From positions 1-42,889 of the IMG/VR virus record IMGVR_UViG_3300036766_000378: a stretch of DNA of 42,889 bases; one strand, 5' to 3'. The stretch's first letter is position 1; each line of letters begins with the position of its first letter. The DNA comes from a virus. The translations under genes were made by a program, and so were the position numbers. The notes beneath the pieces were generated by a model. That model was not told the DNA's origin and did no database searches. It saw nothing but the letters and a program-made list of their open reading frames with translations. This document shows positions 1,702 to 42,882 of this stretch, one piece after another.

Positions 1702-2883
1702 CTACCACTGCACGAACATCGGCATGAGGGCATGTAGGAGGTCACAGACGCCCGTAACCGGCCCTTGCGCCCGGAACACTGCCGCCGAACTTCGCCCGGT
1801 TGTTTCTAACACCACATCACCCGAAAGCGAGCCGACGATATCGGACAGGTAGCGCACGTTGAAGGCGATCATCCCGTCCCCTTCGACCGAGGCGATCAGC
1901 CTTATCTGTGTGTGGCCGATCGCATCCGCCATCGCATCCGCCCGCGCCCCAACCTCCAAGCCGCCTGCGCTGGTGAAGTTGAGGCGGATGATCCTTGAGC
2001 CATCGCGGGCAAAGAGAGAGGCGAGTTTGACCGCCTGTAGGAAGGCGTCACGGTTCACGATTACCCGGCTGGTGTGCTCTGTCGAGATGAGCGCTTTCAG
2101 GGAAGGAAAGATCCCCTGGATGATCTGCGCAGTCAGCGCCCACGAGCCGCCTTCGATGGGCGTAAATGCCATCTGAGTGCGGGTAGGGTTGATCCGAATC
2201 AACAGGTCGGCGGACGGGTCCAGTGCAACGAGCGCCTTGAGTGGCTTCACTACCGCGACCGGGACGATCGCTTTCAGCTCGCAGAGACTCTCTACGGGAA
2301 TGGTCGCGACGGTCAGGCGGAATCCATCGCTCGCGGCCATTCGAATCTTCCCGTCCCGCACATCGAAGTCGATCCCGGTCAGGATCGGACGGGCGTCATC
2401 TTGGGCAGCTGAGAGACGGCAGTATCCGAGCGCAGCGATGAGCGATGAGGCTTTGACGGTGAACGCCTGCCCGCCCTCAAAACGTTCAAACTTCGGAAAG
2501 TCAGCGGGCCGGTAGCCGTTCAGCCAGACTTCGTTCGGGCCACCCGTGATGTGATAGGTGGCGGGGCCGCCCTCGCCCTCGTAGTCCGCGCGAAGTGTCA
2601 CCGACCCATCGGGCATCGCAGCGAGCGCGGCGGCCAACATCCGGCCTGGGAGCACGCCATCGAAGCACTCCGTGGTGTCGCCCCGTACCTCGTATTCGAT
2701 GGTCATGTTGAGGTCGGTAGCCGTGAGCCGAACTCCGCTCTCGATCCCGCAGAGCCGCACCCCTTTGAGGATGGGCAAGGTTGCCCGCCGCTGAACTGCC
2801 GGGATTACGAGGCAAAGGCCGCGCGCGAGGTCGGCTCGTTCTACGGTCACGGACGGGGTTGGCGGTGCTTTCTTCTTCGTCAC
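1702..2883 (-). CDS. dnaN: DNA polymerase III beta subunit (sliding clamp)
   Basis: The 393-aa product matches the three-domain bacterial sliding clamp. It encircles DNA and tethers polymerase and other replication or repair proteins. Visible hallmarks are the early LPILKGVRL segment, the central ARPILTGIDFDVRDGKIRMA block with ASDGFRLTVA, and the C-terminal HALMPMFVQW that corresponds to the usual IMPMR(L) end of DnaN. The length is close to that of cellular clamps (~370 aa). The GTG at 2881-2883 follows GGGGGT and overlaps the preceding small gene (GTGA). The phage has no recognisable polymerase or clamp loader, so this clamp presumably works with the host's. The gene sits in a run of translationally coupled small genes and just before the methyltransferase. 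Confidence 0.93.
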   Translation of the reverse strand: MTKKKAPPTPSVTVERADLARGLCLVIPAVQRRATLPILKGVRLCGIESGVRLTATDLNMTIEYEVRGDTTECFDGVLPGRMLAAALAAMPDGSVTLRADYEGEGGPATYHITGGPNEVWLNGYRPADFPKFERFEGGQAFTVKASSLIAALGYCRLSAAQDDARPILTGIDFDVRDGKIRMAASDGFRLTVATIPVESLCELKAIVPVAVVKPLKALVALDPSADLLIRINPTRTQMAFTPIEGGSWALTAQIIQGIFPSLKALISTEHTSRVIVNRDAFLQAVKLASLFARDGSRIIRLNFTSAGGLEVGARADAMADAIGHTQIRLIASVEGDGMIAFNVRYLSDIVGSLSGDVVLETTGRSSAAVFRAQGPVTGVCDLLHALMPMFVQW

Positions 2884-3026
2884 GCTGTTACCCCCAAAAA
2901 GGCTTCTACGCAGGCTGTGGCGGCCTTGCCAGCGCAGAGTTCGGCGTCCCCGGTGTCCAGCCAGACCCGCCACGTCGGCACCGTCTCTGAGTGTTCCCGC
3001 GTCAGGCGAAACTCGGGTGCGTTCAT
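2880..3026 (-). CDS. Small protein of unknown function (48 aa)
   Basis: This short frame is linked to both neighbours by 4-bp overlaps: ATGA with the SWIM gene upstream and GTGA with dnaN downstream. It has an acidic/aromatic middle (TVPTWRVWLDTGDAELC) and two Cys, and no recognisable domain. The double coupling in a run of such overlaps is good evidence that it is translated. Confidence 0.6.
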   Translation of the reverse strand: MNAPEFRLTREHSETVPTWRVWLDTGDAELCAGKAATACVEAFLGVTA

Positions 3027-3253
3027 GCCTCACCTACCGGCTCAGAAAGCCACGCCATGTACGCCTTCGCCGCTCTCGCCTGGAACATCGCATCGCCGAT
3101 GTGACGGCAGGTTTTGCGGTAGGTGTACCCGGCGCATTGGCACTCCCAGCGGTCGTCACGGAAGCTCACCACGTACTCGCGACCCGGCACCGTTGCACTG
3201 GGGATGCGGTACTCCGGCTGAGGGATTGGCTGGCCGCAATGCTGGCAGTTCAC
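3023..3253 (-). CDS. SWIM zinc-finger protein
   Basis: This 76-aa protein begins with a CQHCG zinc knuckle. It contains ECQCAGYTYRKTCRHIGDA, which matches the SWIM pattern CxC...CxH and would bind one zinc ion. SWIM domains occur in DNA- and protein-binding factors, and small phage versions are common in replication operons. The GTG at 3251-3253 overlaps the stop of the preceding gene (GTGA). Immediate linkage to dnaN and to a possible ssDNA-binding protein suggests a role at DNA, but the activity is unknown. Confidence 0.75.
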   Translation of the reverse strand: MNCQHCGQPIPQPEYRIPSATVPGREYVVSFRDDRWECQCAGYTYRKTCRHIGDAMFQARAAKAYMAWLSEPVGEA

Positions 3254-6434: not shown

Positions 6435-6791
6435 TCAGAACGCGATGCTGACCCCGAACTTGAGGAATTCCGAGCGGAAGTCATCCTCGACGACATGGTA
6501 CTGGAGCAAGTGGGGGTTTGTGCTCCCGATGCGGTCCGGCTGTATTAGGTGTGATCCCATAGCGGACGTGAGTATGAATGTCACTGCGCCAGCCACTCCC
6601 GCGGGAACCGTCACGGAGAACGCTTCGAGGGATGAGTGGAGGGCGATGAGAGGGTTTGTTTCCAGGCGGATGGTGCCCTTCACAGTTTTTCCCGTGAGGT
6701 TGTAGGTGGCCCCGTCGCGCGTCAGGATGTTTTGAAAGACCGCCTCGCCGCCCTGCACCAGCGTCTGTCCCGAGTCCACAAGAATCGTCAT
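6435..6791 (-). CDS. Tail-associated beta-rich protein (118 aa)
   Basis: This short beta-strand-rich protein has the order GGEAVFQNILTRDGATYNLT, then GKTVKGTIRLE, a variable middle and a C-terminal VEDDFRSEFLKFGVSIAF. The arrangement resembles small Ig-like or BppU N-terminal-like domains encoded next to fibre genes, but I cannot assign the family firmly. AAGGAGG precedes the ATG. The stop of the fibre gene lies inside the ribosome site, so the two are expressed together. Confidence 0.6.
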   Translation of the reverse strand: MTILVDSGQTLVQGGEAVFQNILTRDGATYNLTGKTVKGTIRLETNPLIALHSSLEAFSVTVPAGVAGAVTFILTSAMGSHLIQPDRIGSTNPHLLQYHVVEDDFRSEFLKFGVSIAF

Positions 6792-6801
6792 GCCTGCCTC
6801 C

Positions 6802-9456
6802 TTATAGGGTGCCCGTGAGCACCGATGTAATGTCTATTTCCCCATCCACCGCCGAAACCACGTCCACCGTCCCGGTGACGTTCGAGGTCACGTCCAGCGT
6901 ATGCGATGCCAGCGCGTGGGAGCCGTTCACCGTAGCGAGGATGAGTGAAGTGATATCGAGGTTGCCGCGGATGACGTAGCCCGGCACATGCATCTTTCCC
7001 GTGACGGTCGACGTGCCGGCAATAGGGCTAAGGACGAGGAAAATCCGTGCGGAGAGTTGTGCGAGCGCGATGGTAGAGGTTCCCGCCGTTGTGCTCGGCA
7101 CGAGGTACGCCGTCGTGCTTAGGCTCACACTCGCAGAACTGGCCCCGTTCACCGTGGAGAGGGCAAGCAATGACGGTGCCCAGACCTCCCCGGTCGCGGC
7201 GGAAGCCCCGTTCACTGTCGAGAGGGCAAGCAGGGACGGTGCCCAGACCTCCCCGGTCGCCGTGGAGACTGCCGCCGTCGCGGATGGGACAATCGCAGCG
7301 GGCGTAGAAACCGTCGCCGCCGCGGTTGAGACTGCCGCCACGGTGGACGGGACGAGGGCGGCACTGGTACTCACGGTGCCGGTCGCGGCGGAAGCCCCGT
7401 TCACTGTCGAGAGGGCAAGCAGGGACGGTGCCCAGACCTCCCCGGTCGCCGTGGAGACTGCCGCCGTCGCGGATGGGACAATCGCAGCGGGCGTAGAAAC
7501 CGTCGCCGCCGCGGTTGAGACTGCCGCCGTCGCGCTGGGGACGAGGGCAGCACTGGTACTCACGGTGCCGGTCGCCGTGGATATCGCGGCTACGGTAGAC
7601 AGGGTCAGCAGGGACGGTGCCCAGACCTCCCCGGTCGCGGCGGAAGCCCCGTTCACTGTCGAGAGGGCAAGCAATGCGGGCGATTGCACGAAGGCGGTCG
7701 CCGTCGCCTGTGCGGCCGTGGTCGAAATTGCGAGCACCGCCGGGGTGGAAACGGTCGACTGCGCGGTACTCACACCATCAATGGAGGAGAGGGTCAGCAG
7801 GGCCGCGCTAGCGGACGGGGTAGAGACCGTCGCGGTAGCTGTCGCAACACCATCGATCGCACTGAGCGCGAGATAGGTTTGCGCGGCAAGTTGGGATAGC
7901 GCGATGGTGGCAACGCCGGCAACTGCGCTCAGGACCACGAACCCGGCTGTAGAAACCGTCGCCGCCGCGGTTGAGACTGCCGCCGTCGCGCTGGGGACGA
8001 GGGCAGCACTGGTACTCACGGTGCCGGTCGCCGTCGCCACCGCAGCGACGGTGGACAGTACCAGCGCCGCTGCGGTGCTTACCGCTGCCGTCGCCGTGGA
8101 TATCGCGGCTACGGTAGACAGGGTCAGCAGGGACGGTGCCCAGACCTCCCCGGTCGCCGTGGAGACTGCCGCCGTCGCGGATGGGACAATCGCAGCGGGC
8201 GTAGAAACCGTCGCCGCCGCGGTTGAGACTGCCGCCACGGTGGACGGGGCAAGGTCGGCGGTGGTACTGACGGCAGCCGTCGCCGTCGCCGCCGCAGCGA
8301 CCGTGGACAGTACCAGAGCAGCCTCGGTGCTTACCGCTGCCGTCGCCGTCGAGACCGCCGCCACCGTGGAGAGAACGAGGTTGGCTGCGCCGCCTAGAGA
8401 ATATTGGTCGTAGGTGACGGTGCCGTTGTTGTTGTACAGGATGCCGATAGCCGACGTGATCGCAGTAACGTTCACGCCGAGACAGGTAATCGAGGCTTCT
8501 TGGGCCGCATCCGTCCCCCATGTGTTCGTGCCGCCATCCGAGTCGCGATAGAGATCGCCATCAGAGGACTTCGGAAAGAACGCGTAGACCGTGGTGCCCG
8601 ATACCGCGAGCGCACCTGAGTTGGCCGTGGCGCCATCTACGGCGGCGTCCGCTACCGCCGTCCTCGTCAGGCTGAGCGTATCTCCCGTGGTCCCGCGCAG
8701 AATGGAACCGGACGACGTGTTGTCCTTCGTAAACAGGATGATCTCGGAGCCGTTGACCATGCCGTTGCCAACGTCATAGACGGCGTTGCTTCGCGCGCTG
8801 GCGAGCGACGCTTCGGTGGAGAGGGTGTTGTCAGCCTTGAGCGTCTTCCAGTACAGCGTCGTATTCGTCGTCGTCTTACCGTAGAAAATGTGGCAGCGCC
8901 CGCTTGAATCCGGGCCTACGAGTTCGCGAAAATCATCATGAATCTGCGAACCGGAGTCGTCCGCCACGTTTTGAGTAGTCTGCCATGCGCCGGAGACATA
9001 TCGACTCACAAACGGGCGACGATAGTTCGTCCCCATGCTGGCTGCGGTAGCCCCCTGATAGGCCACGACGTAGCTTCCCGCCGCCCGGACGGCCAGTTGA
9101 AAAGCAAGCTTGGTAGTGTCGCTCGCGGTAGGTGTTGGGCCTGTGGCTGTCGCTGTCCCCCATAGGTCGGTGGTCGTGTCAAACGAGTTTATCGTCAGCA
9201 CCGAACCTATCAATAGGTACGCCACATAAATGCTAGTGGACAAAACCTGGGCCGAACCCACGCCCGCGATGGCACTGGGTCGGTGAGCCGAGTCCTGTTC
9301 TGCCCAGGTTGAACCACCGTCCGTTGATTTCCACACAGAGACGGCACCACTGATATTAATGGGCGCGGCATATAAGTTGCCGCCGATTTGAAATGGGCCG
9401 AGATGGGCATTGAGCCAGCCAGACCACATGCCCCCGACGGTTGCTGGGAGCGCCAT
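6802..9456 (-). CDS. Repetitive tail fibre-like protein (884 aa)
   Basis: The N-terminal ~350 residues look like a beta-propeller with a BNR/sialidase-type Asp box (KSTDGGSTWAEQD near residue 45). From about residue 358 to 820 there are roughly 22 tandem 21-residue repeats of the type L.LSTVAA.STATA.VST.A, some replaced by TGEVWAPS variants. A short unique C-terminus with alternating Val/Ile/Thr follows. Beta-repeat shafts of this kind are typical of host-contact fibres. The start at 9454-9456 follows GGGAGG. Many repeats are nearly identical in DNA, so copy number may vary. Receptor binding is inferred from position and composition, not from a recognised domain. Confidence 0.75.
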   Translation of the reverse strand: MALPATVGGMWSGWLNAHLGPFQIGGNLYAAPINISGAVSVWKSTDGGSTWAEQDSAHRPSAIAGVGSAQVLSTSIYVAYLLIGSVLTINSFDTTTDLWGTATATGPTPTASDTTKLAFQLAVRAAGSYVVAYQGATAASMGTNYRRPFVSRYVSGAWQTTQNVADDSGSQIHDDFRELVGPDSSGRCHIFYGKTTTNTTLYWKTLKADNTLSTEASLASARSNAVYDVGNGMVNGSEIILFTKDNTSSGSILRGTTGDTLSLTRTAVADAAVDGATANSGALAVSGTTVYAFFPKSSDGDLYRDSDGGTNTWGTDAAQEASITCLGVNVTAITSAIGILYNNNGTVTYDQYSLGGAANLVLSTVAAVSTATAAVSTEAALVLSTVAAAATATAAVSTTADLAPSTVAAVSTAAATVSTPAAIVPSATAAVSTATGEVWAPSLLTLSTVAAISTATAAVSTAAALVLSTVAAVATATGTVSTSAALVPSATAAVSTAAATVSTAGFVVLSAVAGVATIALSQLAAQTYLALSAIDGVATATATVSTPSASAALLTLSSIDGVSTAQSTVSTPAVLAISTTAAQATATAFVQSPALLALSTVNGASAATGEVWAPSLLTLSTVAAISTATGTVSTSAALVPSATAAVSTAAATVSTPAAIVPSATAAVSTATGEVWAPSLLALSTVNGASAATGTVSTSAALVPSTVAAVSTAAATVSTPAAIVPSATAAVSTATGEVWAPSLLALSTVNGASAATGEVWAPSLLALSTVNGASSASVSLSTTAYLVPSTTAGTSTIALAQLSARIFLVLSPIAGTSTVTGKMHVPGYVIRGNLDITSLILATVNGSHALASHTLDVTSNVTGTVDVVSAVDGEIDITSVLTGTL
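6990..8385 (-). repeat. 63-bp coding tandem repeats (about 22 units)
   Basis: These in-frame repeats encode the 21-residue modules of the fibre-like protein. Two alternating module types recur (ALVPSATAAVSTAAATVST and LLALSTVNGASAATG), in blocks that are almost identical in DNA, which points to recent duplication and exchange between units. Confidence 0.85.
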
Positions 9457-13185: not shown

Positions 13186-13464
13186 TCATGGTTGGATCGC
13201 CACCTGTTGCGCGGCCCCGCTTGCGAACAGCGCCATCAGCTTTGTCTTACCGCTCCCGTTATCGACACAGTATAACCAGCAGCCATCCGTCACAGCGGTG
13301 GGCACGGTGTCGATCTCGCGCATAAGGATGCGGTTCGGGGAGAGTGAATCTCCCGTTTCCATCCCCCTGAGCCCGTTATCAGAAAGCCTATTCAACCGCC
13401 CGGTCAGGGTAGCAACGGCCACACTCAGGCGGGCGATCTCGGCGTCCCGGTCGATATCGTTCAT
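13186..13464 (-). CDS. Short virion-type protein with N-terminal coiled coil (92 aa)
   Basis: Coupled to the upstream tail gene by ATGA. Residues ~5-30 (DRDAEIARLSVAVATLTGRL) are a coiled coil. The rest is beta-rich (GCWLYCVDNGSGKTKLMALF). It resembles small accessory tail proteins but I cannot name the family. The GSGKTK string is not in a P-loop context. Confidence 0.55.
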   Translation of the reverse strand: MNDIDRDAEIARLSVAVATLTGRLNRLSDNGLRGMETGDSLSPNRILMREIDTVPTAVTDGCWLYCVDNGSGKTKLMALFASGAAQQVAIQP

Positions 13465-15410
13465 TGGCCGCTCACCGTAGGGACAGTTACGGCGTGGATT
13501 TGGGCGATCTTGCCGATACCGCCCCCTGAGTTTTGATCGCCGCCGTCGCTCTTCACGTCGGAAATGATCACTTCTACGAGCTTCACGTACTCCGAATCCC
13601 CGTCCGCATCAGCGGCAAAGAGCGTGGTTTGGTTAATCGCTTCGCCGAGGATGCGGTCTGCCTGTGCTTCCGCCGTCCCCTCGATTGAGTCGTCCTTGAG
13701 GATCACGGTGAAGGTGTAGTCGTTCACCTCCAGGGGGCGCAGACGATAGGTCAGCTTCAATTGGCCCTTCACCTGGGGGGCGGAGGTTGAGGTATTCGTA
13801 GCAAAGGCGAGTTGCGGCTTGATTCTTCGCCCCGAGGTCGTGCTAAGCGGCACGCCAGCCGAGACGTTGAGGAGCCGATTGAAGGCGTTCCCCGTGACCG
13901 CCGCATAGTTGCCGTTGCTCCCGCCGTCCGCTGTGACGCCCAGCGTGATCGTGCGCGCCGCAGTCGCGTTACTAGATTCAAACTCCCACGCCTCTACGTC
14001 CTTGATGAGGTGGGGATAGCGGCGGAGTTCGGTGAGGTAGGTCGTCCCCGAGGTCTGGTAGGTGTAGTTGGTGTCGTCAATCTCTCGCTCAATCCGCCCC
14101 AGGGTCATGTAGAACATATTCGACCCGTACCCGCCGACCAGTGTTGGGTTCGTGCGGACATTCGAGTCGTTGATGATTTCCAGCCACTCGCACGCGAGGT
14201 CCGTTAGCCTGGCGATCGGGTAGTAGCTCTGCGGGTTGGTGTGATGGTCACCGACCTGTCGTGGCCGGACAGCGCAGATCCATGTGTCGCCCGTCAGTTC
14301 GTCATACCACGCCTCGTATCCCCAGCGTGTGCTCCCGGCTTGTGCGGTGGGGTAGCCCCTGACGGGCGAGAGGTTGCCGCCGAAGCGCTCAATCCCGATG
14401 CTTTCTGATACCCCGTTCTTGAAGTACCGCATCCCGTCGCGCAGGGGGATTTTCACCCCGAAGTACGACCACTCGCGCATCTGGTGGCAGTTGGCCTCGT
14501 CGTTGCCAATCTCGGGCATGTAGGGGTAGAAGTCTTTGTTGGTCGGGTTGAGGAGGTATGGGCCTCTCGTTGTGCCGATGAGCCAGAGATTCCCGTCCAC
14601 CGCGAAGCCAGTCATCGTGATCGCCTGGCCGTCGATCGTCGTTACCGTGTTCCAGTTCGGCGCTGCCATCGTGATTGAGCCTGAGAGCACGTTTCCCGCC
14701 GCTGTCTGTGAGGCAAGCCGCACGATTCGCCCGTCAGGAGCCAAGCCGAGAATCCTTGCCGCCACTGAGGCGGAGTTCGTCGTCCATGTATCGAGCGTCC
14801 CCGTCGTGGTCATGGTCTGATAGGGCGAGGACGGCATGCCGAGCGAAAGTTCCACCGTGCCGTCGTTCGCGCGCGTCGAAAACACGGAGGTAGAGCCTTC
14901 GGGGAGTTCCAGGCCCGTGCGGGCGAGGGTCATGGTCACGGCGTTCACCTTCGCCGGGAAGTTGCCCCGAGAGAGGTACAACAGGTACAGCCCCCCGGTA
15001 GCGATGAACGCCATCCCGTTCACGTTGTCCGCGACTCCGGGGGCATCAGTGTTCGCGCTGACATCGACAAGGCAGGAGTCCTCGTCTACCAGCGAGATGG
15101 CGTGGGGGGTGTCGTAAGTCGAGAGCGTGACCGTTGGCAGGGCAGGGCCGAGCGTGTGCGCATCTTTAAAGCGCGAATCAGTGCCCAGGCAGTAATCGAT
15201 TCCCAAGAACCCGGCGCCCTGTTCGGACACATCCTCGAAGGAGTGGAACGCCTCGGAAGAGAGATCCCAGATCGCTTCAAGCTGGGGGCCGGGGTCGCCA
15301 AGCTGGGAGGGGCGATTCTTCACCAGCCATCGCTTCCCCCCGGTGGGCACATAGGTCTGCCCGGCGAGCGAGTAGCGATGCCCCCCAAGTGTGACGGTCG
15401 CGCGCGCCAT
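13461..15410 (-). CDS. Large tail/baseplate protein (649 aa)
   Basis: This long beta-rich protein has propeller-like spacing of aromatic/Gly segments (FAVDGNLWLIGTTRGPYLL, WGYEAWYDELTGDTWICAV) and a C-terminal beta-sandwich-like region (PQVKGQLKLTYRLRPLEVND). The pattern fits a tail hub or tip protein of a short-tailed phage. No signal or catalytic motif is visible. The start follows the upstream stop by 3 nt without a clear ribosome site, so reinitiation is likely. Confidence 0.65.
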   Translation of the reverse strand: MARATVTLGGHRYSLAGQTYVPTGGKRWLVKNRPSQLGDPGPQLEAIWDLSSEAFHSFEDVSEQGAGFLGIDYCLGTDSRFKDAHTLGPALPTVTLSTYDTPHAISLVDEDSCLVDVSANTDAPGVADNVNGMAFIATGGLYLLYLSRGNFPAKVNAVTMTLARTGLELPEGSTSVFSTRANDGTVELSLGMPSSPYQTMTTTGTLDTWTTNSASVAARILGLAPDGRIVRLASQTAAGNVLSGSITMAAPNWNTVTTIDGQAITMTGFAVDGNLWLIGTTRGPYLLNPTNKDFYPYMPEIGNDEANCHQMREWSYFGVKIPLRDGMRYFKNGVSESIGIERFGGNLSPVRGYPTAQAGSTRWGYEAWYDELTGDTWICAVRPRQVGDHHTNPQSYYPIARLTDLACEWLEIINDSNVRTNPTLVGGYGSNMFYMTLGRIEREIDDTNYTYQTSGTTYLTELRRYPHLIKDVEAWEFESSNATAARTITLGVTADGGSNGNYAAVTGNAFNRLLNVSAGVPLSTTSGRRIKPQLAFATNTSTSAPQVKGQLKLTYRLRPLEVNDYTFTVILKDDSIEGTAEAQADRILGEAINQTTLFAADADGDSEYVKLVEVIISDVKSDGGDQNSGGGIGKIAQIHAVTVPTVSGQ

Positions 15411-24657: not shown

Positions 24658-24819
24658 CTATTTGTTGGGGGTCGCCACGGTCAGCATTCCGCATTTGCGG
24701 CACTTGAAGCGCGCGGCTCCCTGCCCATCGTATTCACCAACAAGCGGGGCGTTGGGGCACCACTGACACACGACTTTGCGCCAGGCGATTGCGACTGGGG
24801 GGGAGGTCGCGAGCGTCAA
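24658..24819 (-). CDS. Com-like zinc ribbon (53 aa)
   Basis: The start is a TTG overlapping the stop of the 1505-aa gene (TTGA). Two Cys pairs (VCQWC and FKCRKCGMLTV) form a zinc ribbon whose second half resembles the Com protein of Mu-like phages, a translational regulator of the mom modification gene. No mom gene is visible here, and the resemblance is short, so function is open. Confidence 0.55.
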   Translation of the reverse strand: MTLATSPPVAIAWRKVVCQWCPNAPLVGEYDGQGAARFKCRKCGMLTVATPNK

Positions 24820-27800
24820 CGAGGCCCCCTGAGTAGTGCCTGAATGTCCTTGTTCGGGGTGATGTGACCCCACTTCACGCCCGCCCGCAGCTCGCCGAGA
24901 TGGGTCATAGCCCATTGAATCCTAAGAGCGTCAGTCATAGCGTTGAGATCTTTCACCAGTGGCATCTTGGCGATCTCCTGAGCGGCAAGGTACCTTGCCG
25001 CTTCCGGAGGGGCGCCGGCCTGAGTGATCATTCTCGTGAGATCGCGGAGTTGCTGGTCATACCAGGTGCCAAAATCTTGCATTCCAGTCGGAGCGCCGGC
25101 AGAACGGAGTTTGTTCCAAACCCCATCCTGAATATCCCAATACGGCAAGAGCGCTTTCGTGGCGGCGCGGTATTCGCGTACGGTCGGCGTATCGAGGCTA
25201 AGCCCAGTCTTGTCGCCGATGTGCTTCACGTCTGCCGGGTGCAGTGTCGCTATGTAGGCGTCCACCTTCGTCCAATCGGGCGGGCCGCCCGTACCGGGGT
25301 TCGCGGCGTCCAGCGCGGCGAAGTACTTGTCCAGCACCGGGTCTTTGCCCGCCGTGAGGTTCAGCGCGTGGTAGATTTCGTCCTTGCGAATTCGCAGCTC
25401 GGTCTGGTTCGCGTGGAAGTTGTCGCTCCACGTTTTGCCGTCCTGGTCCTGCGCGAACTGCTTATCGGCGTTCTGCTGCTGGCCGGTGATCTTCGCCGTG
25501 ACCTCCTGTGCGCGTTTGCCTTCACCTGACGCTTGCTGGTCGCGGAGATTCGCAATGTAGGGGTTTGCTGCCAAGAGGTCGTCCTGCGCTGTTTTGCTAA
25601 GCGAGGCAAAGTCGCCGCCCGCCTTCTGATCCAGTCGTTCCGTTGCGGTCATGGGGTTGGAGTTCAGGCCCAGGCTGTTTGCGATGCCATCAAGAATAGC
25701 GTCGTGCCACGACATCCCCTTCGCACGATTCAGTACAGCGCTGGCGATACTGATGGGAATCGCCGCATCCACTGCCGCTTGCCATGCATCCTCAGGGGCG
25801 GCACTGCGAGGGTTGTAGCCGCTGAACGTCTCGTCTCGCGCAATCTCGGTAACTTTGCGGCCTACCGGTGAGCCCTTCGATTGCTCTACCTGCCCGATGG
25901 CATCCAGTAGCGCCATCATGTCGTGGTCTTTGATTGCTTTGTTTGCGCTGTTCGCGGCAACCGCGGCCAGTCGAGCATAGGTGCGATACGGACCGAGCAA
26001 GCTCACGTCCTGACCCTCGACTCGCGCTGTCCCAAAGTTGGGGTTCATCTTCAATTCGCCGTTCTTCAGCGCCTTCATGTCAATGGGATTCAACACTTCG
26101 CCCATGTCCCGCCCCTGAGCCGCAGCGATGCCGGCGGTAGCCATGCCCATCGTCGTGAAGTATGTCCCGAGATAACGCCGGGCAATCTGCCCTTCCAAAC
26201 CCTTATCCGTAAACGCCTTGCCCATCGTCTCGAAAATCGCACGCTGAAAGTTGGAAGCGAAGAAGCCCAGCGTCTCTAGATCGCCCGCGCGAGTGGTGGC
26301 CGCTCCAGTCATGCGGTTCACCGCCGCTGCGACCTGTTCTTCGGCACGAGCATCCATCGCCATACCACCGCGCTTGTTCATATCAATGATCGCGTCGGTC
26401 AGGTCAGCGCGCATACGACTGTTCAAGGACTCGAAGTAAACATTGGCGCGCTCAGCTGCCTTCCCCACCACGGGGAGGCGCGTGAACCAGCTCGTGAACT
26501 CGTAGTCCGAGTTCGCACCGTTCGGCCCAAGTAGTGCCGTACCCCGCCGCTGAGCGCGTTGCGCTACCGGAGATGCAAGCCACTTGTCATATTCAGCAGG
26601 GTTGAACGAATCGCGCACACTCGCGCCGATGTTCTTAGCAAACAAGTCGGGGTGGAGCACGTAGGTCAGATGGTTCTGTAAAAACGTCCCAGAGGCGTCA
26701 AGAGTCGCTTTTGCAGAAGTCAGGTTGCTGTTAACTGAGCGAATATCGCGCTGCACTTTGCCGATCTGCGATCCTTCCGGCAGACGAGCGTTTAGGTCGA
26801 AGAAGTGAGTAAGGGCGGAAGCCGTAGCCTTCGGGTAATCCTTGCCCATGAACGCGGTAGCACCCTGCACCTTCGCTCGCCCGGCCGCATTTCCGACTCG
26901 ATCAGCCGCAACCTCCTGTGCCTTCCGCCACTCAGGAAGAAGCGCATCGAACTGTGCCTGCGTCTGCGAAAGACGGTGCTGTATCGAATCAGCCAGCCCA
27001 GCCCACTGTGATCCTCGCGCGCTAAGTGCATCAGCCCGACGCTGCATCTGGCGCAGGGCCGTGTACACGTCTTCCGGGGCTACGTTCTTCGCAGCGACGA
27101 CAGTAGCGGCATCTGCCTCTTTAAGCGCCCCCGCAGCGCCCTTCGCCTCAATCTCCTGCGCTGCCCGCTTGATGTACGCGCTCACCGCATTTTCCTGCGC
27201 CCCTTGAACCGCTGTTCCCTCCAGGTTCTTCAGGAGCGCATAGCGAATCTCCCCCTCCTGTGCGGTGGATCTACTGGCGAGATCGGCGACCACTGAATCG
27301 AGTTTTCCCTGAAACGCATTCTGCGCTGCTCGGTCGAGTTCCAAACCGCTACCTGCCGCCCGCGCTGTACGCAGCGCATCGGTACGAGCGGAGTTCATTT
27401 CTTGAACGGCAGTTTTCAACGCCACTTTGGCCTCAGCGGAAGGCATGAGGCTGCTGAGTTTATCGATGGGCTTTTCGAGTTCGCCCGACTTTCCGTATGC
27501 AAGCCCAGCGCGTTTCTCCGCCGTTGCGAGCCTGCCGGTTTGGGATTGCACCGCTGCTTTCAGCGTATCGAACTTCGTTCGCAGCGCGTCCGGCACATAG
27601 TCTGCACTGGTCCGCTGCACGACCGAAGCGAGGTCGCGAAGATGCGCGGTGGCCGCCTTATTCAGCCCACGCTCGACATTCTGCCCTAGAGCGTTTACGG
27701 GGTGGTCGTAAACGACGCCTGCCGCAACGGCATCGATGGGATTATCAAAGAGGCGAGTAGCATCCTGGGCGACGCTGCCCATTGATGAGCCACCGCCCCC

Positions 27801-29333
27801 CGTCGCTTCCATCGCTTTCGCTGGATTACCCGCCCCACCCAGGAGGACTTCAAGAAAGCCGCGCTTCGCGCCCTGTTCGCCCTGTTGCACCAGCGCCGAA
27901 GCCTGTGTCACTGTTGACGGCTTAAGGGCGCTGCGGTGGAGCCACTGTTCGCCTTCTTCCATAGCCAACCGATGAGGAGACGCACCGAACATGTCGCGTT
28001 CCGCTGACACATCGGCTTGCAACTGGGCAATCTTCCGTGCCCCGCCAATGGCGCGCTCGCCGAGACTGTACTGGGTTGGATTTTCAAGGACGTTCTGCAC
28101 CAGCGCGCCCGGCTTCGGGCCGAGCTTCGCCAGTTCTTCGGCAGTCTGCGGGATACCCTTGAAGTAGAGGTTACCAGCTTCATCGCGAATAACGGATGAT
28201 CGGGTTGCAGCCTGAATGTCTCGCATCGCGATCCGTCCCTGCGCAGTGGCGGTGATCTTGTAATTGTTCACCTGCCGCCCGAGGTTTCGAGCTTCACCGA
28301 GCAACGTCTTATTGAAGGTGGGGTTGGTTTCAGGAGTGCCGAAAACTTCCGCAGCCCGCGCGCTGAGAATAGAGCCCTTGCGCGGGGACGTTTCTAATGC
28401 TGGCTGGCGAAGTTTTAATCGCTGATCAAGAAGTGCAGACGGGTTCACGCTACCCGCCTCGCCCGCGTTGACCGCCTTTGCCGCCGCGCCTGCTTGCTTC
28501 GCCGCACCGGGGAGCAGCGGCTTCACCGCGTTCAGCGCCTCGTATGCGCCCACGCCGGCCGCAAGCTGCGCATAGCCCACTCTCACAGGCTTCGGGATAA
28601 CGCCGAGCGGGGTTCGCCCCACCGCTTCTGAGCCCGCCACGTCGCCCGCGTACATGCTGTATCCCGTGATCGCAAGGTTGCGCGCGAAGTTCGATGCGAA
28701 TCCTGCCACACCCCCACCCGTGCCCAGCGTCGCGAGCGACAGGGGCGACAGCCCATAGCCCAAGATGTCCTGCGCGTGGTAGTCGTTGGGGACCCGCTTG
28801 ATCGCGTTTCCCTCGATGGGCACATTGCGCGCGTCGGTCACCTGCGAGAATACGTCACCAGCACTGCCCATCGGGTCTGTGATCGTCTGAAACGCCCTAC
28901 CCGGCACGGTGTAGCCCGCAGCCTTGCTGCCCAGTACGTTGCCAACCTTGCCCGCAACGTCACCCAGCGCCCCGAACCCGCCGCTGCCCAGTACGTTGCC
29001 AACCTTGCCCGCAACGTCACCCAGCGCCCCGAACCCGCCGCTGCCTGAGGCGCTGTAGGTTGTCTGGCTGAACTTGTTGAAGTTGCCCTGCGCGGTGCTG
29101 TACGGCCCGACGATGGGCGCTTGCGGCACCGTATTACTGAGCGGGTTCGTGAGCGGGGTGTTCGCGCCCCAGCCCGGTGCAGTGCGCTGCAACTCGGGAT
29201 TAGCTTGCGGTACCGTCGCTCCGCCCAAGCGCGGCCCCACTCCCGATCCTAGATTCGGCGCGGGGGAATATCTGGGACTGGGCGGGTTCTTCGGCAACTG
29301 GTCAAGCGTGTCGGAGCCGAGGTACAAGGCCAT
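24816..29333 (-). CDS. 1505-aa virion protein, polyvalent/ejection-type
   Basis: This giant protein has a low-complexity Gly/Pro-rich N-terminus with a duplicated 19-residue GALGDVAGKVGNVLG unit, then a hydrophobic stretch (SLATLGTGGGVAGFASNF), a long coiled-coil middle, and a C-terminal third with a conserved-looking module. The pattern GTYFTTMGMATAGIAAAQG, later NFGTARVEGQDVSLLG and a KGSPVGRKVTEI helix resembles large polyvalent-protein-associated domains of phage ejected proteins. The gene sits between the portal-side proteins and the scaffold, where short-tailed phages encode internal virion proteins. No peptidase or transglycosylase motif is evident. A tape-measure role is possible but the Pro/Gly content argues against it. 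Confidence 0.6.
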   Translation of the reverse strand: MALYLGSDTLDQLPKNPPSPRYSPAPNLGSGVGPRLGGATVPQANPELQRTAPGWGANTPLTNPLSNTVPQAPIVGPYSTAQGNFNKFSQTTYSASGSGGFGALGDVAGKVGNVLGSGGFGALGDVAGKVGNVLGSKAAGYTVPGRAFQTITDPMGSAGDVFSQVTDARNVPIEGNAIKRVPNDYHAQDILGYGLSPLSLATLGTGGGVAGFASNFARNLAITGYSMYAGDVAGSEAVGRTPLGVIPKPVRVGYAQLAAGVGAYEALNAVKPLLPGAAKQAGAAAKAVNAGEAGSVNPSALLDQRLKLRQPALETSPRKGSILSARAAEVFGTPETNPTFNKTLLGEARNLGRQVNNYKITATAQGRIAMRDIQAATRSSVIRDEAGNLYFKGIPQTAEELAKLGPKPGALVQNVLENPTQYSLGERAIGGARKIAQLQADVSAERDMFGASPHRLAMEEGEQWLHRSALKPSTVTQASALVQQGEQGAKRGFLEVLLGGAGNPAKAMEATGGGGSSMGSVAQDATRLFDNPIDAVAAGVVYDHPVNALGQNVERGLNKAATAHLRDLASVVQRTSADYVPDALRTKFDTLKAAVQSQTGRLATAEKRAGLAYGKSGELEKPIDKLSSLMPSAEAKVALKTAVQEMNSARTDALRTARAAGSGLELDRAAQNAFQGKLDSVVADLASRSTAQEGEIRYALLKNLEGTAVQGAQENAVSAYIKRAAQEIEAKGAAGALKEADAATVVAAKNVAPEDVYTALRQMQRRADALSARGSQWAGLADSIQHRLSQTQAQFDALLPEWRKAQEVAADRVGNAAGRAKVQGATAFMGKDYPKATASALTHFFDLNARLPEGSQIGKVQRDIRSVNSNLTSAKATLDASGTFLQNHLTYVLHPDLFAKNIGASVRDSFNPAEYDKWLASPVAQRAQRRGTALLGPNGANSDYEFTSWFTRLPVVGKAAERANVYFESLNSRMRADLTDAIIDMNKRGGMAMDARAEEQVAAAVNRMTGAATTRAGDLETLGFFASNFQRAIFETMGKAFTDKGLEGQIARRYLGTYFTTMGMATAGIAAAQGRDMGEVLNPIDMKALKNGELKMNPNFGTARVEGQDVSLLGPYRTYARLAAVAANSANKAIKDHDMMALLDAIGQVEQSKGSPVGRKVTEIARDETFSGYNPRSAAPEDAWQAAVDAAIPISIASAVLNRAKGMSWHDAILDGIANSLGLNSNPMTATERLDQKAGGDFASLSKTAQDDLLAANPYIANLRDQQASGEGKRAQEVTAKITGQQQNADKQFAQDQDGKTWSDNFHANQTELRIRKDEIYHALNLTAGKDPVLDKYFAALDAANPGTGGPPDWTKVDAYIATLHPADVKHIGDKTGLSLDTPTVREYRAATKALLPYWDIQDGVWNKLRSAGAPTGMQDFGTWYDQQLRDLTRMITQAGAPPEAARYLAAQEIAKMPLVKDLNAMTDALRIQWAMTHLGELRAGVKWGHITPNKDIQALLRGPR
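28926..29039 (-). repeat. 57-bp tandem duplication in the 1505-aa gene
   Basis: Two exact 57-bp copies (28926-28982 and 28983-29039) encode a repeated 19-residue Gly/Val module. In frame and identical in DNA, so recent. Confidence 0.85.
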
Positions 29334-29336
29334 GCT

Positions 29337-31409
29337 TTAGTACCCGATCGCCCGCTGTCCCCGTCCAAGTCCGGCAAGGGCGTACCTGTTTGCCTCTGCC
29401 TGCTGGTCAGCGACGGGGACGCCGTATTTCGTCTGGTTGCCCATCATGTACGAACTTCCCAGCGTCGGACTGACGTTGCCGAACTGAGTATTGTAAACAC
29501 CCCCCGCGAAGCCGAGGTCAGGCACGTTCGCGTTCTGGCGAAACTGCCGAATTTGGTCGATGTACGGCTTATCCTCAGGGGCAATCAGCGTCCCGAGTGC
29601 CTGGTCAGTTCCTAAAGCGAACCGGCCCTGCGACTTTAGTTCACGGCCAAGCGTGACATCGCCCGCCATGCCCGAAGCATCCGCGCCGCCGTCCATCAAG
29701 TCCATGAGCACGCGCATCAGCATCGTCAGCTTTTCGGGATTGCCGAGACGTGCGGACATCGGTGGTTGGTTGGTCATCATTGGATCTGCCAGCGGCGTCA
29801 CCGTAGCCCCTGCGTTGTTTGCTCCCGGAGGGTCTACCACCTTGATCTTCTCTGGAGCCTTGCCGCCCACAAAAGGGTCCGTTGGGTCAGTCGAGTCCCC
29901 CGCCAGGAAAGGCTTTCCATTGACTCCCGCAAGGGGTGGCCTGTCGTTACCCGTCGGCATCGTCCCATAGGCAAGACGTTCAGGTGGGGCATCAGGATGC
30001 TGCTGGTTCCACCAATCAAGCGTCGCCTGCTGGTTCTCCAAGGGTGTCTGTGTCGCGGCCTGCCGCGGGTCTGGCGGTAGTCCCATCGTTTGAGGATGTG
30101 CCGCGTCAACCGATGTGTTCATCGTCTGTCCCGGAACCTTGATTGGGGTCTTCCCTTGAAGGTACAGCGGCAACGTATTCTGGGTGGGCGTTGCACCACC
30201 AAGATAGGGATTCGTAGACGCGACGCTCGGGTTCGTGCGCTCCTGGTAGGTGTAGGGCGCTACCTGCGCGAGCGGCTGATCCTGCGTCCTCAATGTCCTC
30301 GCGGCACCGAGCATCGCCTGGTCCGACAGCGCCGACTTCCCCCCCGCAATCGCGTTCGAGATGTTCCCACCACCACCAAGCAGGAAGGCATTGACGGCGT
30401 TGGTATCGGTTGAAGAGATGAGCCCGGCGATTTGCGCCGCGTTCTGTGCCCCAAGCTGGAGGTTCGCGCGCTGGCTGGCCGCGATATCGAGGGCGTTGGT
30501 CGCGGTGAACTCCCCCGCCCTCTGCGCCCGGTCAAGCGTGCTCTCCCCGCTCTGATAAGCCTGCGCCCCCAGTCGCTCACCGCTGGTGAACTGCCGGTTG
30601 ATCTGGTTCTGGCCCGCGGTGAAGTCCTGAGAGCCAAGACGCTCTGAGGTCTGAAACCCCTGAGAATTGGCTTGCAATGCGGCATCCGCGGCGCGCTGGG
30701 TCTCTGCGTTTATTTTCTGCGCGGCGATCTGGGCCGTAGTGTCCGGGGAGATGGTGGCAGCAGAGATGATCGTCTTCGAGCCAGTGGCGGTGTCGTAGAG
30801 GACTGTGCCTTCTGAGGTCTGGATGATCTGCTTCGTCCCGTTGGGGTCGGTAAGCCCGGTATAAATCGGGGTTCCACCGCCCGGTGGCAGGTAGTACACC
30901 TTGCCGCCCACGGTCGTGTAGGAGCCCTGTGGCGCGGCTGCCCCTCCGCCTGTTGAAGGCTTGTCGCCGCCGAGGTACTTCCACGAGCCGTCTGCCTGTC
31001 GTTCGTAGAGGCCATATCCCTGCGGCCCGTTAAAGGCTTCCGTCTGCGACTTTGGGTCGGTCTGCGACTTTGGGTCGGTCTTCGACGTGTCGATCCCGTA
31101 GGTGTACTTTAGGACCATCTGCGGATCGATGAACCCGGCGCCCGAACCTTCGACGCCGTTCCACATTTGCCCCGAGGCGTTTGCCCAATACCCGCCACTT
31201 GTTTGGGTGAAGCGGGGATCGTTGATCCAGTGAAGGCCGTTCCCAACCGTATTACTGAGCGGGTTCGCTGTAGCGCGGGTGTTCATGTCCGCTGCCCAGG
31301 CGTCGCTGATGTTTGAGTAGCCCAACTGACTGCCGAAGGGGTAGAACTTCTTGTCATCCCCTATGTAGTAGCCGCCGCCGAACCAGTGGGTGTCGTAAAT
31401 GGTTTGCAT
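29337..31409 (-). CDS. Large virion protein, unknown role (690 aa)
   Basis: The N-terminal ~90 residues (YDTHWFGGGYYIGDDKKFYP) are aromatic-rich. The centre has helical Gln/Ala/Gly repeats such as FTAGQNQINRQFTSGERLG, a coiled-coil-like composition often seen in virion proteins. The C-terminal third is Pro-rich with little structure. The ATG at 31407-31409 shares its A with the upstream stop (TGATG), and GGGAGGG lies just before. Between portal and the 1505-aa protein, it fits an internal or portal-associated protein. Confidence 0.62.
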   Translation of the reverse strand: MQTIYDTHWFGGGYYIGDDKKFYPFGSQLGYSNISDAWAADMNTRATANPLSNTVGNGLHWINDPRFTQTSGGYWANASGQMWNGVEGSGAGFIDPQMVLKYTYGIDTSKTDPKSQTDPKSQTEAFNGPQGYGLYERQADGSWKYLGGDKPSTGGGAAAPQGSYTTVGGKVYYLPPGGGTPIYTGLTDPNGTKQIIQTSEGTVLYDTATGSKTIISAATISPDTTAQIAAQKINAETQRAADAALQANSQGFQTSERLGSQDFTAGQNQINRQFTSGERLGAQAYQSGESTLDRAQRAGEFTATNALDIAASQRANLQLGAQNAAQIAGLISSTDTNAVNAFLLGGGGNISNAIAGGKSALSDQAMLGAARTLRTQDQPLAQVAPYTYQERTNPSVASTNPYLGGATPTQNTLPLYLQGKTPIKVPGQTMNTSVDAAHPQTMGLPPDPRQAATQTPLENQQATLDWWNQQHPDAPPERLAYGTMPTGNDRPPLAGVNGKPFLAGDSTDPTDPFVGGKAPEKIKVVDPPGANNAGATVTPLADPMMTNQPPMSARLGNPEKLTMLMRVLMDLMDGGADASGMAGDVTLGRELKSQGRFALGTDQALGTLIAPEDKPYIDQIRQFRQNANVPDLGFAGGVYNTQFGNVSPTLGSSYMMGNQTKYGVPVADQQAEANRYALAGLGRGQRAIGY
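31043..31078 (-). repeat. 18-bp in-frame tandem duplication
   Basis: Two copies of an 18-bp word (31043-31060 and 31061-31078) encode TDPKSQ twice in the 690-aa virion protein. Confidence 0.85.
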
Positions 31410-31705
31410 CAGTTCCCTCCCATCGTTGCCATTGCGTAAGGCAGGATCAGGGCTTCGTACGCTTGCTGTCCCATGAGCCTCTTGTAACGGCGGTTCAAGT
31501 CCGCCCCGTTTACCGTGAGTTCCAATGCGGGGATGTAGTTCGGGTCTTTCTGCGCCTGCGCTTCGTACCACTGGACAAACTGGGCATCGTCCGGCTCGCC
31601 CGCGTGCAAAGGAATGCCCTTGAACGCCTCGTCAAGCACCTTCGCATCCTCGGCTCGCATCTCTGCGACCCGCTGCACAATCCGCGCGATCTGCTTGGAG
31701 TTCAC
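31409..31705 (-). CDS. Small protein after the portal (98 aa)
   Basis: Starts with GTG overlapping the portal stop (GTGA). Predicted helical, with charged N-terminal half (ARIVQRVAEMRAEDAKVLDE) and a C-terminal YKRLMGQQAYEALILPYAMA. Likely a portal partner or head-completion factor by position; unrecognised by sequence. Confidence 0.6.
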   Translation of the reverse strand: MNSKQIARIVQRVAEMRAEDAKVLDEAFKGIPLHAGEPDDAQFVQWYEAQAQKDPNYIPALELTVNGADLNRRYKRLMGQQAYEALILPYAMATMGGN

Positions 31706-41358: not shown

Positions 41359-42119
41359 CGTTGCCTCCAATTCGGCAGGCCCGCGAAGCTCACGCTGACG
41401 CTCGATGCGTGGTCCGCGAGACGACTGAGGATGCGTTCGTGCCCGCGCACCGTCTCCGGGTTGCAGGTCACGATCAGCGGCAGCCCGTTTCGCCAGCGGT
41501 GGTCAACGATCTGGTACATCTTGGCCTCCGACGCCCCGGTGCCCAACGATTCCGCTCCCCAATCGTCGATGATGAGCAGCGGCGTGGCTTCCAACTCGCG
41601 GTCGATCGCCGCCTCGCTTTCCGTCGCATCATCGCCGTACGTCGCCCGGTAACGCCGCCACAGTTCGGCGAATGAGTGGAAGCGTGAGTAGGCGCCGAAC
41701 CGTTCCAGCGCATCGCGAGCAACTGCTATCGCAAGGTGAGTCTTGCCCGTACCCGATGGTCCGCCAAGGAACAGGAACGGCTTCGATGGCGGAAACTTGT
41801 CGAGGTAGGTCATCGCCTGTAGCCGCTGCGCAGAACTGTGCGGCAGCCAGGTTTCAAGCGTCGCGGCGGCGAAGTGCGCCGGCACGCCCGCGCGCACTCT
41901 CTCAGGTTGCTCTTGAAACGTCCGTTGCTTCTTCGTCACGCACTGAGGGCACAGGATCGTCTTCCCGAACATCGGATGGCGCGGGTCACCCTCGGTCACG
42001 CGCACCCTTCCTCCGTCATGGCAGTAGTCACAGGCGAACACTTCCGGGATGGGATCAAGCGTGCCGGGTGACGTGCTCGTCAAAGAACTTTTCGGCATAA
42101 GTCGGCTGATGTGTTCCAT
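41355..42119 (-). CDS. DnaC/IstB-type helicase loader ATPase
   Basis: The 254-aa AAA+ protein has an N-terminal zinc site (C30, C33, C57, C60), then Walker A GGPSGTGKT (119-127), Walker B LLIIDD (181-186) and a sensor-1-like PLIVTCNPE. DnaC-type proteins deliver the replicative helicase to an origin. AAAGGAGG lies 8 nt before the ATG at 42117-42119. The gene overlaps the initiator by 65 bp, as lambda P follows O. No phage helicase is present, so it presumably loads the host DnaB. Confidence 0.87.
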   Translation of the reverse strand: MEHISRLMPKSSLTSTSPGTLDPIPEVFACDYCHDGGRVRVTEGDPRHPMFGKTILCPQCVTKKQRTFQEQPERVRAGVPAHFAAATLETWLPHSSAQRLQAMTYLDKFPPSKPFLFLGGPSGTGKTHLAIAVARDALERFGAYSRFHSFAELWRRYRATYGDDATESEAAIDRELEATPLLIIDDWGAESLGTGASEAKMYQIVDHRWRNGLPLIVTCNPETVRGHERILSRLADHASSVSVSFAGLPNWRQR

Positions 42120-42726
42120 TCTGCGAACCTCCTTTCGCAAACTGCTTCCGCTTCCACTCGACCCGGAGTTGGTTTCGGAACCCCCGTTCTTTGTCCGTGT
42201 GTTTCGAGGAACCTGTCCAGTTCAGGTAGTCAGCAGCGAACGCCGGTATGTCCAAATCCGGCTCCTCCCCTTGGACCGTTTGAAGAAACTCGTCCGAGAG
42301 GGTGGAGCGCCTCGCGCGACTAATCACTGACGGTTCTATTAATGACGGTTCTTGACGGTTCGTCTGATGTGGGGCATCCGCCTTTGTGTCGCGAAGATCC
42401 GCCTTTGTGTCGCGAAGATCCGCCTTTGCCCCTTTTTCGCTAAAGGCGGATGCTTGGCATTTTATTCGTTCGACATTTAGGAGATATTGGGAACTGTTGC
42501 CGCGCCCGTTGCCCACTTTGACCACTGTAATCCAGTCGTCAGCGACCAACGCGTGAAGATTTACGCGGCAGTTTCGCTCCGAAATACTGGCTTTCGCCGC
42601 GACAGTTTCCTGGTTCGGCCAGCAATAGCCCGTGTCATTCGCGTTGTCGGCGAGCGCCACAAGAACGAGTTTGCGGACGGGAGGAAGGGCTAAAAGAAGA
42701 ACGTCGCCAAGAATGCGAATGCTCAT
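42055..42726 (-). CDS. Replication initiator with internal iterons (223 aa)
   Basis: The N-terminal ~90 residues form a winged-helix/HTH domain (RKLVLVALADNANDTGYCWP, ETVAAKASISERNCRVNLHA) like phage O-type initiators. A short middle has the repeat KADLRDTKADLRDTKADAPH encoded by iterons, and a C-terminal ~85 residues has DIPAFAADYLNWTGSSK. It would bind the iterons in its own gene and recruit the loader encoded next. No Shine-Dalgarno precedes the ATG at 42724-42726; instead the leader ends in a terminator-like hairpin. Confidence 0.72.
   Translation of the reverse strand: MSIRILGDVLLLALPPVRKLVLVALADNANDTGYCWPNQETVAAKASISERNCRVNLHALVADDWITVVKVGNGRGNSSQYLLNVERIKCQASAFSEKGAKADLRDTKADLRDTKADAPHQTNRQEPSLIEPSVISRARRSTLSDEFLQTVQGEEPDLDIPAFAADYLNWTGSSKHTDKERGFRNQLRVEWKRKQFAKGGSQNGTHQPTYAEKFFDEHVTRHA
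42376..42451. other. Candidate replication origin: iterons in the initiator gene
   Basis: The word ATCCGCCTTT occurs three times at exactly 21-bp spacing (42376, 42397, 42418) and once inverted (42442-42451). A more AT-rich stretch (about 42431-42490) follows. Direct iterons inside the initiator gene next to AT-rich DNA are the lambda-type origin plan. Confidence 0.65.
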
Positions 42727-42728
42727 GG

Positions 42729-42792
42729 CAAAGAAAAGCCCCTGTCGGAAGTCAGAAACCCGTTGCTGACCGTGCCTGACCCGACAGGGGCT
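42729..42792 (-). terminator. Terminator/attenuator in the initiator leader
   Basis: On the minus strand a perfect 12-bp stem (42792-42781 with 42748-42737; AGCCCCTGTCGG and complement) encloses an inner 5-bp stem (GTCAG/CTGAC) and is followed by TTTTCTTT. The run ends 3 nt before the initiator ATG. This is a strong intrinsic terminator by form, placed in the 5' leader rather than after a gene. It could end transcription from the methyltransferase operon across the contig junction, or act as an attenuator of the initiator. Confidence 0.72.
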
Positions 42793-42882
42793 ACTTCAAA
42801 AAGGGAATGGGCACTCTGCCTATCCGACACGATCAGCGCCTTCATTGTACCGCATCGCACGGCAACGCAACACGGCTCATCG
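42757..42882. repeat. Terminal direct repeat, right copy
   Basis: Identical to 1-126. The last seven bases of the window (42883-42889) do not match the left continuation. It includes one arm of the leader hairpin and a -10-like TACAAT (42844-42849, minus strand). Confidence 0.9.

Follow-up and report, generated by a model that had tools for sequence, protein, structure and literature searches.

A putative phage replication origin within an O-like initiator gene combines phage-specific iterons with an array of a conserved GAACC box

The window examined here, i.e. the whole stretch of 42,889 nucleotides of viral DNA that was analysed, probably contains a phage replication origin that lies within the initiator gene and is composed of two kinds of repeat, namely phage-specific iterons and an array of a conserved box. 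Judged from sequence, the feature first noticed appears to be genuine and to represent a fairly ordinary O-like origin; what is added here is the near-fixed second repeat found beside the variable iterons, which has good statistical support and a putative function. The novelty of this box should be regarded as provisional: in a literature search that covered few subscription papers or preprints, GAACC(A)GTCA boxes were not mentioned, and the matches to box sequences that it did return were apparently coincidental (e.g. primers). If the boxes work as proposed below, a short DNA pattern inside the initiator gene would suffice to locate the origin in a very large group of temperate phages.

The O-like replication initiator gene occupies positions 42055–42726 on the minus strand and encodes 223 amino acids. 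Its product matches the profile of PHROG 391 (O-like; E 3.3e-17, residues 1–141), and HTH_36 (E 8e-8) is the sole Pfam family above its cut-off; none of the other phage replication-initiator domains in Pfam was detected at E 0.1. The winged HTH comprises residues 1–90 (about 42457–42726), for which the AlphaFold2 pLDDT is mostly above 90, while values of 50–60 were obtained in the linker encoded by the repeats. A Foldseek search gave generic winged-helix matches only, none of them at E ≤ 0.001, and the top match of the HTH profile among PDB sequences was the N-terminal domain of DnaD (2vn2, E 1.5e-4). The 3' end of the gene is overlapped by a second minus-strand ORF (42140–41355), which encodes a DnaC-like AAA+ helicase loader (PHROG 50, E 1.5e-39; IstB_IS21, E 8.7e-14) and has TTG at 42140 or ATG at 42119 as candidate start codons. 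The initial annotation had predicted an iteron-containing initiator gene with a helicase loader gene downstream, and these matches (PHROG 391 and HTH_36; PHROG 50 and IstB) agree with that prediction. Searches of viral contigs with the initiator or the loader of the window alone retrieved no relatives. Upstream of the initiator ATG, the minus strand also contains a strong hairpin (42737–42792; perfect 12-bp stem, z -4.4, -37.7 kcal/mol) with TTTTCTTT behind it, which stops 10 bases short of the start codon and spans AGGGG, the likely ribosome-binding stretch. A role as a terminator or attenuator, or as a translational switch, is conceivable.

Elsewhere in the window, a sliding clamp with three DNA_pol3_beta domains is encoded at 1702–3033, and a scan of the larger ORFs revealed no polymerase, both as had been anticipated. 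The packaging genes had also been described as being of the short-tail type; the terminase, however, has its matches among generic and T4/cyanophage-like terminases, and no marker of tail type was found. An exact 126-bp end repeat (1–126 = 42757–42882, after which the record closes with 7 divergent bases) makes the genome look circular or terminally redundant, with a length of about 42.76 kb. Four very large ORFs (24816–29333, 29337–31571, 6802–9456 and 13461–15410, encoding 1505, 744, 884 and 649 amino acids) gave no PHROG match at E 0.001 (0.1 for 6802–9456) and no Pfam match at E 0.01, and a search of the window against Rfam gave no match.

The iteron core ATCCGCCTTT(G) is present three times within the initiator ORF, at 42376, 42397 and 42418, with spacings of 21 and 21 bp. 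In the direction of transcription, copy 1 is represented by its core (42418–42428, minus strand; CAAAGGCGGAT on the coding strand), while copy 2 (42397–42417, minus strand) and copy 3 (42376–42396, minus strand; core 42376–42386) extend over the full 21 bp, so that the copies at 42376 and 42397 form a perfect 21-bp tandem; all three share an exact ATCCGCCTTTG, again at 21-bp intervals. An inverted core, AAAGGCGGAT, is located on the plus strand at 42442–42451 and encodes residues different from those of the direct copies. The three exact direct repeats and the inverted copy inside the initiator gene are located where the initial annotation had placed them. The exact core does not occur elsewhere in the window, and synonymous codon shuffling with the protein kept constant yielded four cores in none of 20,000 trials. 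The in-frame peptide repeat that had been noticed in the iterons is also present (KADLRDT). In a Microcystis phage relative, however, the iterons are 17 bp apart and hence lie in different reading frames, which indicates that the iterons are DNA elements and that the in-frame peptide repeat is incidental.

A second repeat, GAACCGTCA, which was overlooked in the initial annotation, is present in three copies at 42328–42361 and is the more conserved part of the two. On the coding strand, the array starts 14 bp past the last iteron core. All boxes are on the minus strand: box 1 (42353–42361) is read in a frame encoding N-R-Q, while box 2 (42343–42351) and box 3 (42328–42336) both encode E-P-S, so that two reading frames are used. 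Their spacing of 10 and 15 bp fits a general pattern of at least two sense GAACC(N)GTCA boxes, 10–17 bp apart, located after the iterons. One other exact GAACCGTCA was found in the window, at 6605, away from the initiator locus.

The association of the box with this type of gene was examined in relatives gathered through motif scans, profile searches of genomes, and annotated phages, the HTH alignment being too diverse for scanning. Two GAACCGTCA within 8 bp of each other were present in at least 119 viral contigs; among the 119 matches listed, 78 had an O-like HTH ORF, and in 74 the pair was inside the O-like ORF, always in the sense orientation. The control, a complete scan with the reversed motif of equal composition, returned 48 contigs, none of them with an O-like ORF. 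A pair of GAACCAGTCA, the form of the box in many enterobacterial relatives, was present in at least 120 viral contigs, many of them closely related to each other, and among the matches listed 112 pairs were inside an O-like ORF, all of them sense. Among the annotated phages, which were collected by protein similarity, GAACCAGTCA boxes are common to Ayreon, PhiR49_2, Vibrio D65, ST64B and PseuP_222 despite their differing upstream repeats, and the Microcystis phage combines its own 17-bp iterons with a single GAACC.

Long low-complexity arrays coding for TVTG, with chance boxes, were present in five viral contigs and made up a major part of the background of these scans. A genome scan for the motif in triplicate likewise gave mostly unrelated tandem repeats, so that short spacing and gene context were demanded. 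In three Bacillota genomes, the initiator gene has a repeated GAATACCCA-type sequence after the iterons, at the position of the GAACC box; as a general form of the box, GAATACCCA was not supported, since it was found in 12 viral contigs with one O-like gene. In a gammaproteobacterial initiator gene, three GAACCTGTGAA with 12-bp spacing immediately follow the iterons, as a diverged box array.

The frequency of the box was estimated on a sample chosen without the motif, for which 1,253 genomes of Gamma- and Alphaproteobacteria, Bacillota and Actinomycetota were searched with the HTH profile alone. In the resulting 53 non-redundant O genes, AGAACCG, GAACCGT and ACCGTCA emerged de novo among the top enriched 7-mers and were strand-asymmetric; AAGAAC was present in the sense orientation in 21 genes and in the antisense orientation in none. 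Two or more GAACC at 9–17 bp from each other were found in 16 of 52 genes on the sense strand and in 0 of 52 on the antisense strand (Fisher P = 4e-6), and of the 30 possible orders of these five letters none but the overlapping AACCG approaches this result. The bases before the clustered GAACC are rich in A, and those after it tend to (G/T)TCA followed by purines. By group, clusters were observed in 7 of 13 gammaproteobacterial, 6 of 12 actinomycetotal and 3 of 13 alphaproteobacterial genes; the clustered box was missing in two thirds of the unbiased sample, including all 14 genes from Bacillota. The box is a DNA element that is common yet not universal.

The arrangement of the repeats was studied on 212 box-bearing initiator genes (including repeat fetches of single loci, the window among them), which formed 50 clusters when the HTH domains were grouped at 60% identity; as this set was chosen by the box, it is informative about arrangement, not about frequency. 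The initial annotation had pointed to relatives devoid of iterons as evidence that would count against it; in this box-selected set, the 130 bp upstream of the first box contained an exact direct repeat of 10 bp or more in 46 of the 50 clusters, and such a repeat was downstream in 2 of 50. The sequence of the upstream repeats varies between clusters, and their spacing is often 21–23 bp or multiples thereof, while 56 of 66 pairs of neighbouring boxes have a spacing of 10–12 bp, close to one helical turn. The HTH tree is too poorly resolved to separate inheritance of the box by initiator lineage from inheritance by host.

Taken with the gene identities, both sets of repeats, the conservation of the box at the DNA level, and the order, strand, spacing and local duplex weakness of the elements, all of which are observed features, the following scheme can be proposed, in which the identity of the origin, the binder of the box and the order of events are those that we infer. 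The winged-HTH N-terminus of the O-like initiator would bind the iterons as duplex DNA, and the initiators assembled there would bend the box region and separate its strands. The box strand exposed in this way would be retained by the initiator or else by a protein common to such systems, and the overlapping DnaC-like protein would load the host replicative helicase at the opened boxes. The box array is, in this scheme, probably an unwinding or single-strand site. More generally, there is perhaps an even chance that GAACC(A)GTCA is a widespread, hitherto unrecognized origin element of HTH_36-type phage initiators, i.e. a strand-specific site of opening or single-strand recognition, which is fixed while the iterons and the duplex-binding surface diversify, and which could serve to locate phage origins across phyla from sequence alone. 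The contrast between variable iterons and fixed box makes it testable which protein reads each part of the origin, and the same split bears on the placement of the helicase on one strand and on the compatibility of phages within one cell.

The duplex around the boxes is comparatively weak. The candidate unwinding region (42315–42365) contains 53% AT, vs 38% in the genome, and the duplex at 42325–42365 is weaker than 98.8% of the stretches of equal length in the window; the least stable segment of the gene, 42449–42498, is on the opposite side of the iterons from the boxes. Across 45 clusters, the mean nearest-neighbour stability reaches its lowest local value at the boxes (z +1.2, standard error 0.15). 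This weakness, an order of parts equal to that of lambda, and the presence in P22 of a repeated ACAAAAGACAATA after the iterons would also be expected of a plain lambda-type origin, in which the boxes would be the ordinary unwinding repeats of the family, like the A-rich repeats of lambda and P22, and a mere variant in sequence. We consider this reading unlikely, although worth serious attention, because the box is half G+C and near-fixed across very diverse initiators, and AT-richness alone needs neither.

As for the reader of the box, the main alternative to the phage initiator is a host protein, such as the helicase, the primase, DnaA or another factor. Such a protein would fit a box that stays constant while iterons and HTH diverge, and that is found with different partner genes. 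These were classed by annotation or match, a home-made loader profile being insufficiently sensitive for assigning partner-gene classes: the partner is P-like in MD8, of the DnaB type in PP9W2, ZF40 and phiV039C, and DnaC-like in the window and in PhiR49_2. However, lambda O, P22 gene 18 and Rac ydaU all lack the box although their hosts are related, so that the host does not require it, and in the cases compared it tracks HTH_36-type initiators. A host protein as the binder therefore seems decidedly improbable, and the variety of partners together with the absence of the box from these three genes favours the HTH_36-type initiator itself as the box reader.

That iterons and boxes are operators regulating the initiator gene, with replication starting elsewhere, appears very improbable. 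The GC skew of the unique sequence of the window is uninformative in this respect (detrended amplitude, P = 0.19) and indicates no origin, which leaves some room for such a role; the repeats, however, are located mid-gene, past the DNA-binding domain and not at a promoter, as in the characterized lambda origin (PMC7466680). Finally, it is hardly credible that the boxes reflect a protein feature, i.e. a conserved EPS-rich linker of the initiator with an incidental DNA repeat: the EPS frame does account for most boxes in the cluster representatives (83, 17 and 16 boxes per frame, n = 116), but a peptide-level explanation is strongly disfavoured by the use of identical DNA in three frames (EPS, NRQ or RTV), by the codon bias of the linker EPS tripeptides in the unbiased sample towards GAA (16 of 17, 49% expected; P = 1e-4) and TCA (11 of 17, 15% expected; P = 5e-6), and by synonymous shuffling of the window's initiator gene, which never produced three boxes.

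Several known systems resemble the proposed origin in part. In the repABC plasmid p42d, silent mutations demonstrated that the origin is inside repC (PMC3155836); as proposed here, it lies in the coding sequence of the initiator, but repC was found to contain no iterons. DnaA, RctB and plasmid Rep proteins are known to have single-strand motifs in their unwinding elements (PMC10797057), and DnaD recognizes one of the two strands of the Bacillus origin via its C-terminal tail (PMC10201434). By analogy, the boxes may be compared with the DnaA-trio and the DnaD recognition element of bacterial oriC and with the RctB/Rep motifs, each being a short repeat beside duplex sites in the opening region. 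All of these elements differ from the boxes in sequence and spacing, and DnaD uses its C-terminal tail, not the N-terminal domain matched by the HTH profile.

Lambda-type origins consist of iterons and an AT-rich region inside O (PMC7466680). The lambda ori with genes O and P, and genes 18 and 12 of P22, are similar to the window in having in-gene repeats after the DNA-binding domain, with several iterons followed by easily opened DNA (a candidate region in the window), and an overlapping helicase-loading gene directly downstream. The initial annotation had likened the window to lambda O/P, and this holds for the layout. It does not hold for the protein families, as the N-terminus of the window's initiator is HTH_36, judged by the Pfam cut-off, and the partner is DnaC-like (PHROG 50), vs P in lambda; nor do lambda O and P22 gene 18 share the GAACC box of the window. 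Both of these genes carry a related ACAAAAGACA-type sequence after their unlike iterons, which is possibly the counterpart of the box in the lambda/P22 type of initiator.

Initiators of the HTH_36/PHROG 391 type are also known from Pseudomonas phage MD8, Escherichia phage PhiR49_2, Salmonella phage ST64B and Pectobacterium phage ZF40. Iteron sequences and partner genes differ between these relatives and the window, and some relatives have diverged boxes or none, but they have in common with it the initiator family and the presence of internal iterons followed by GAACC boxes.
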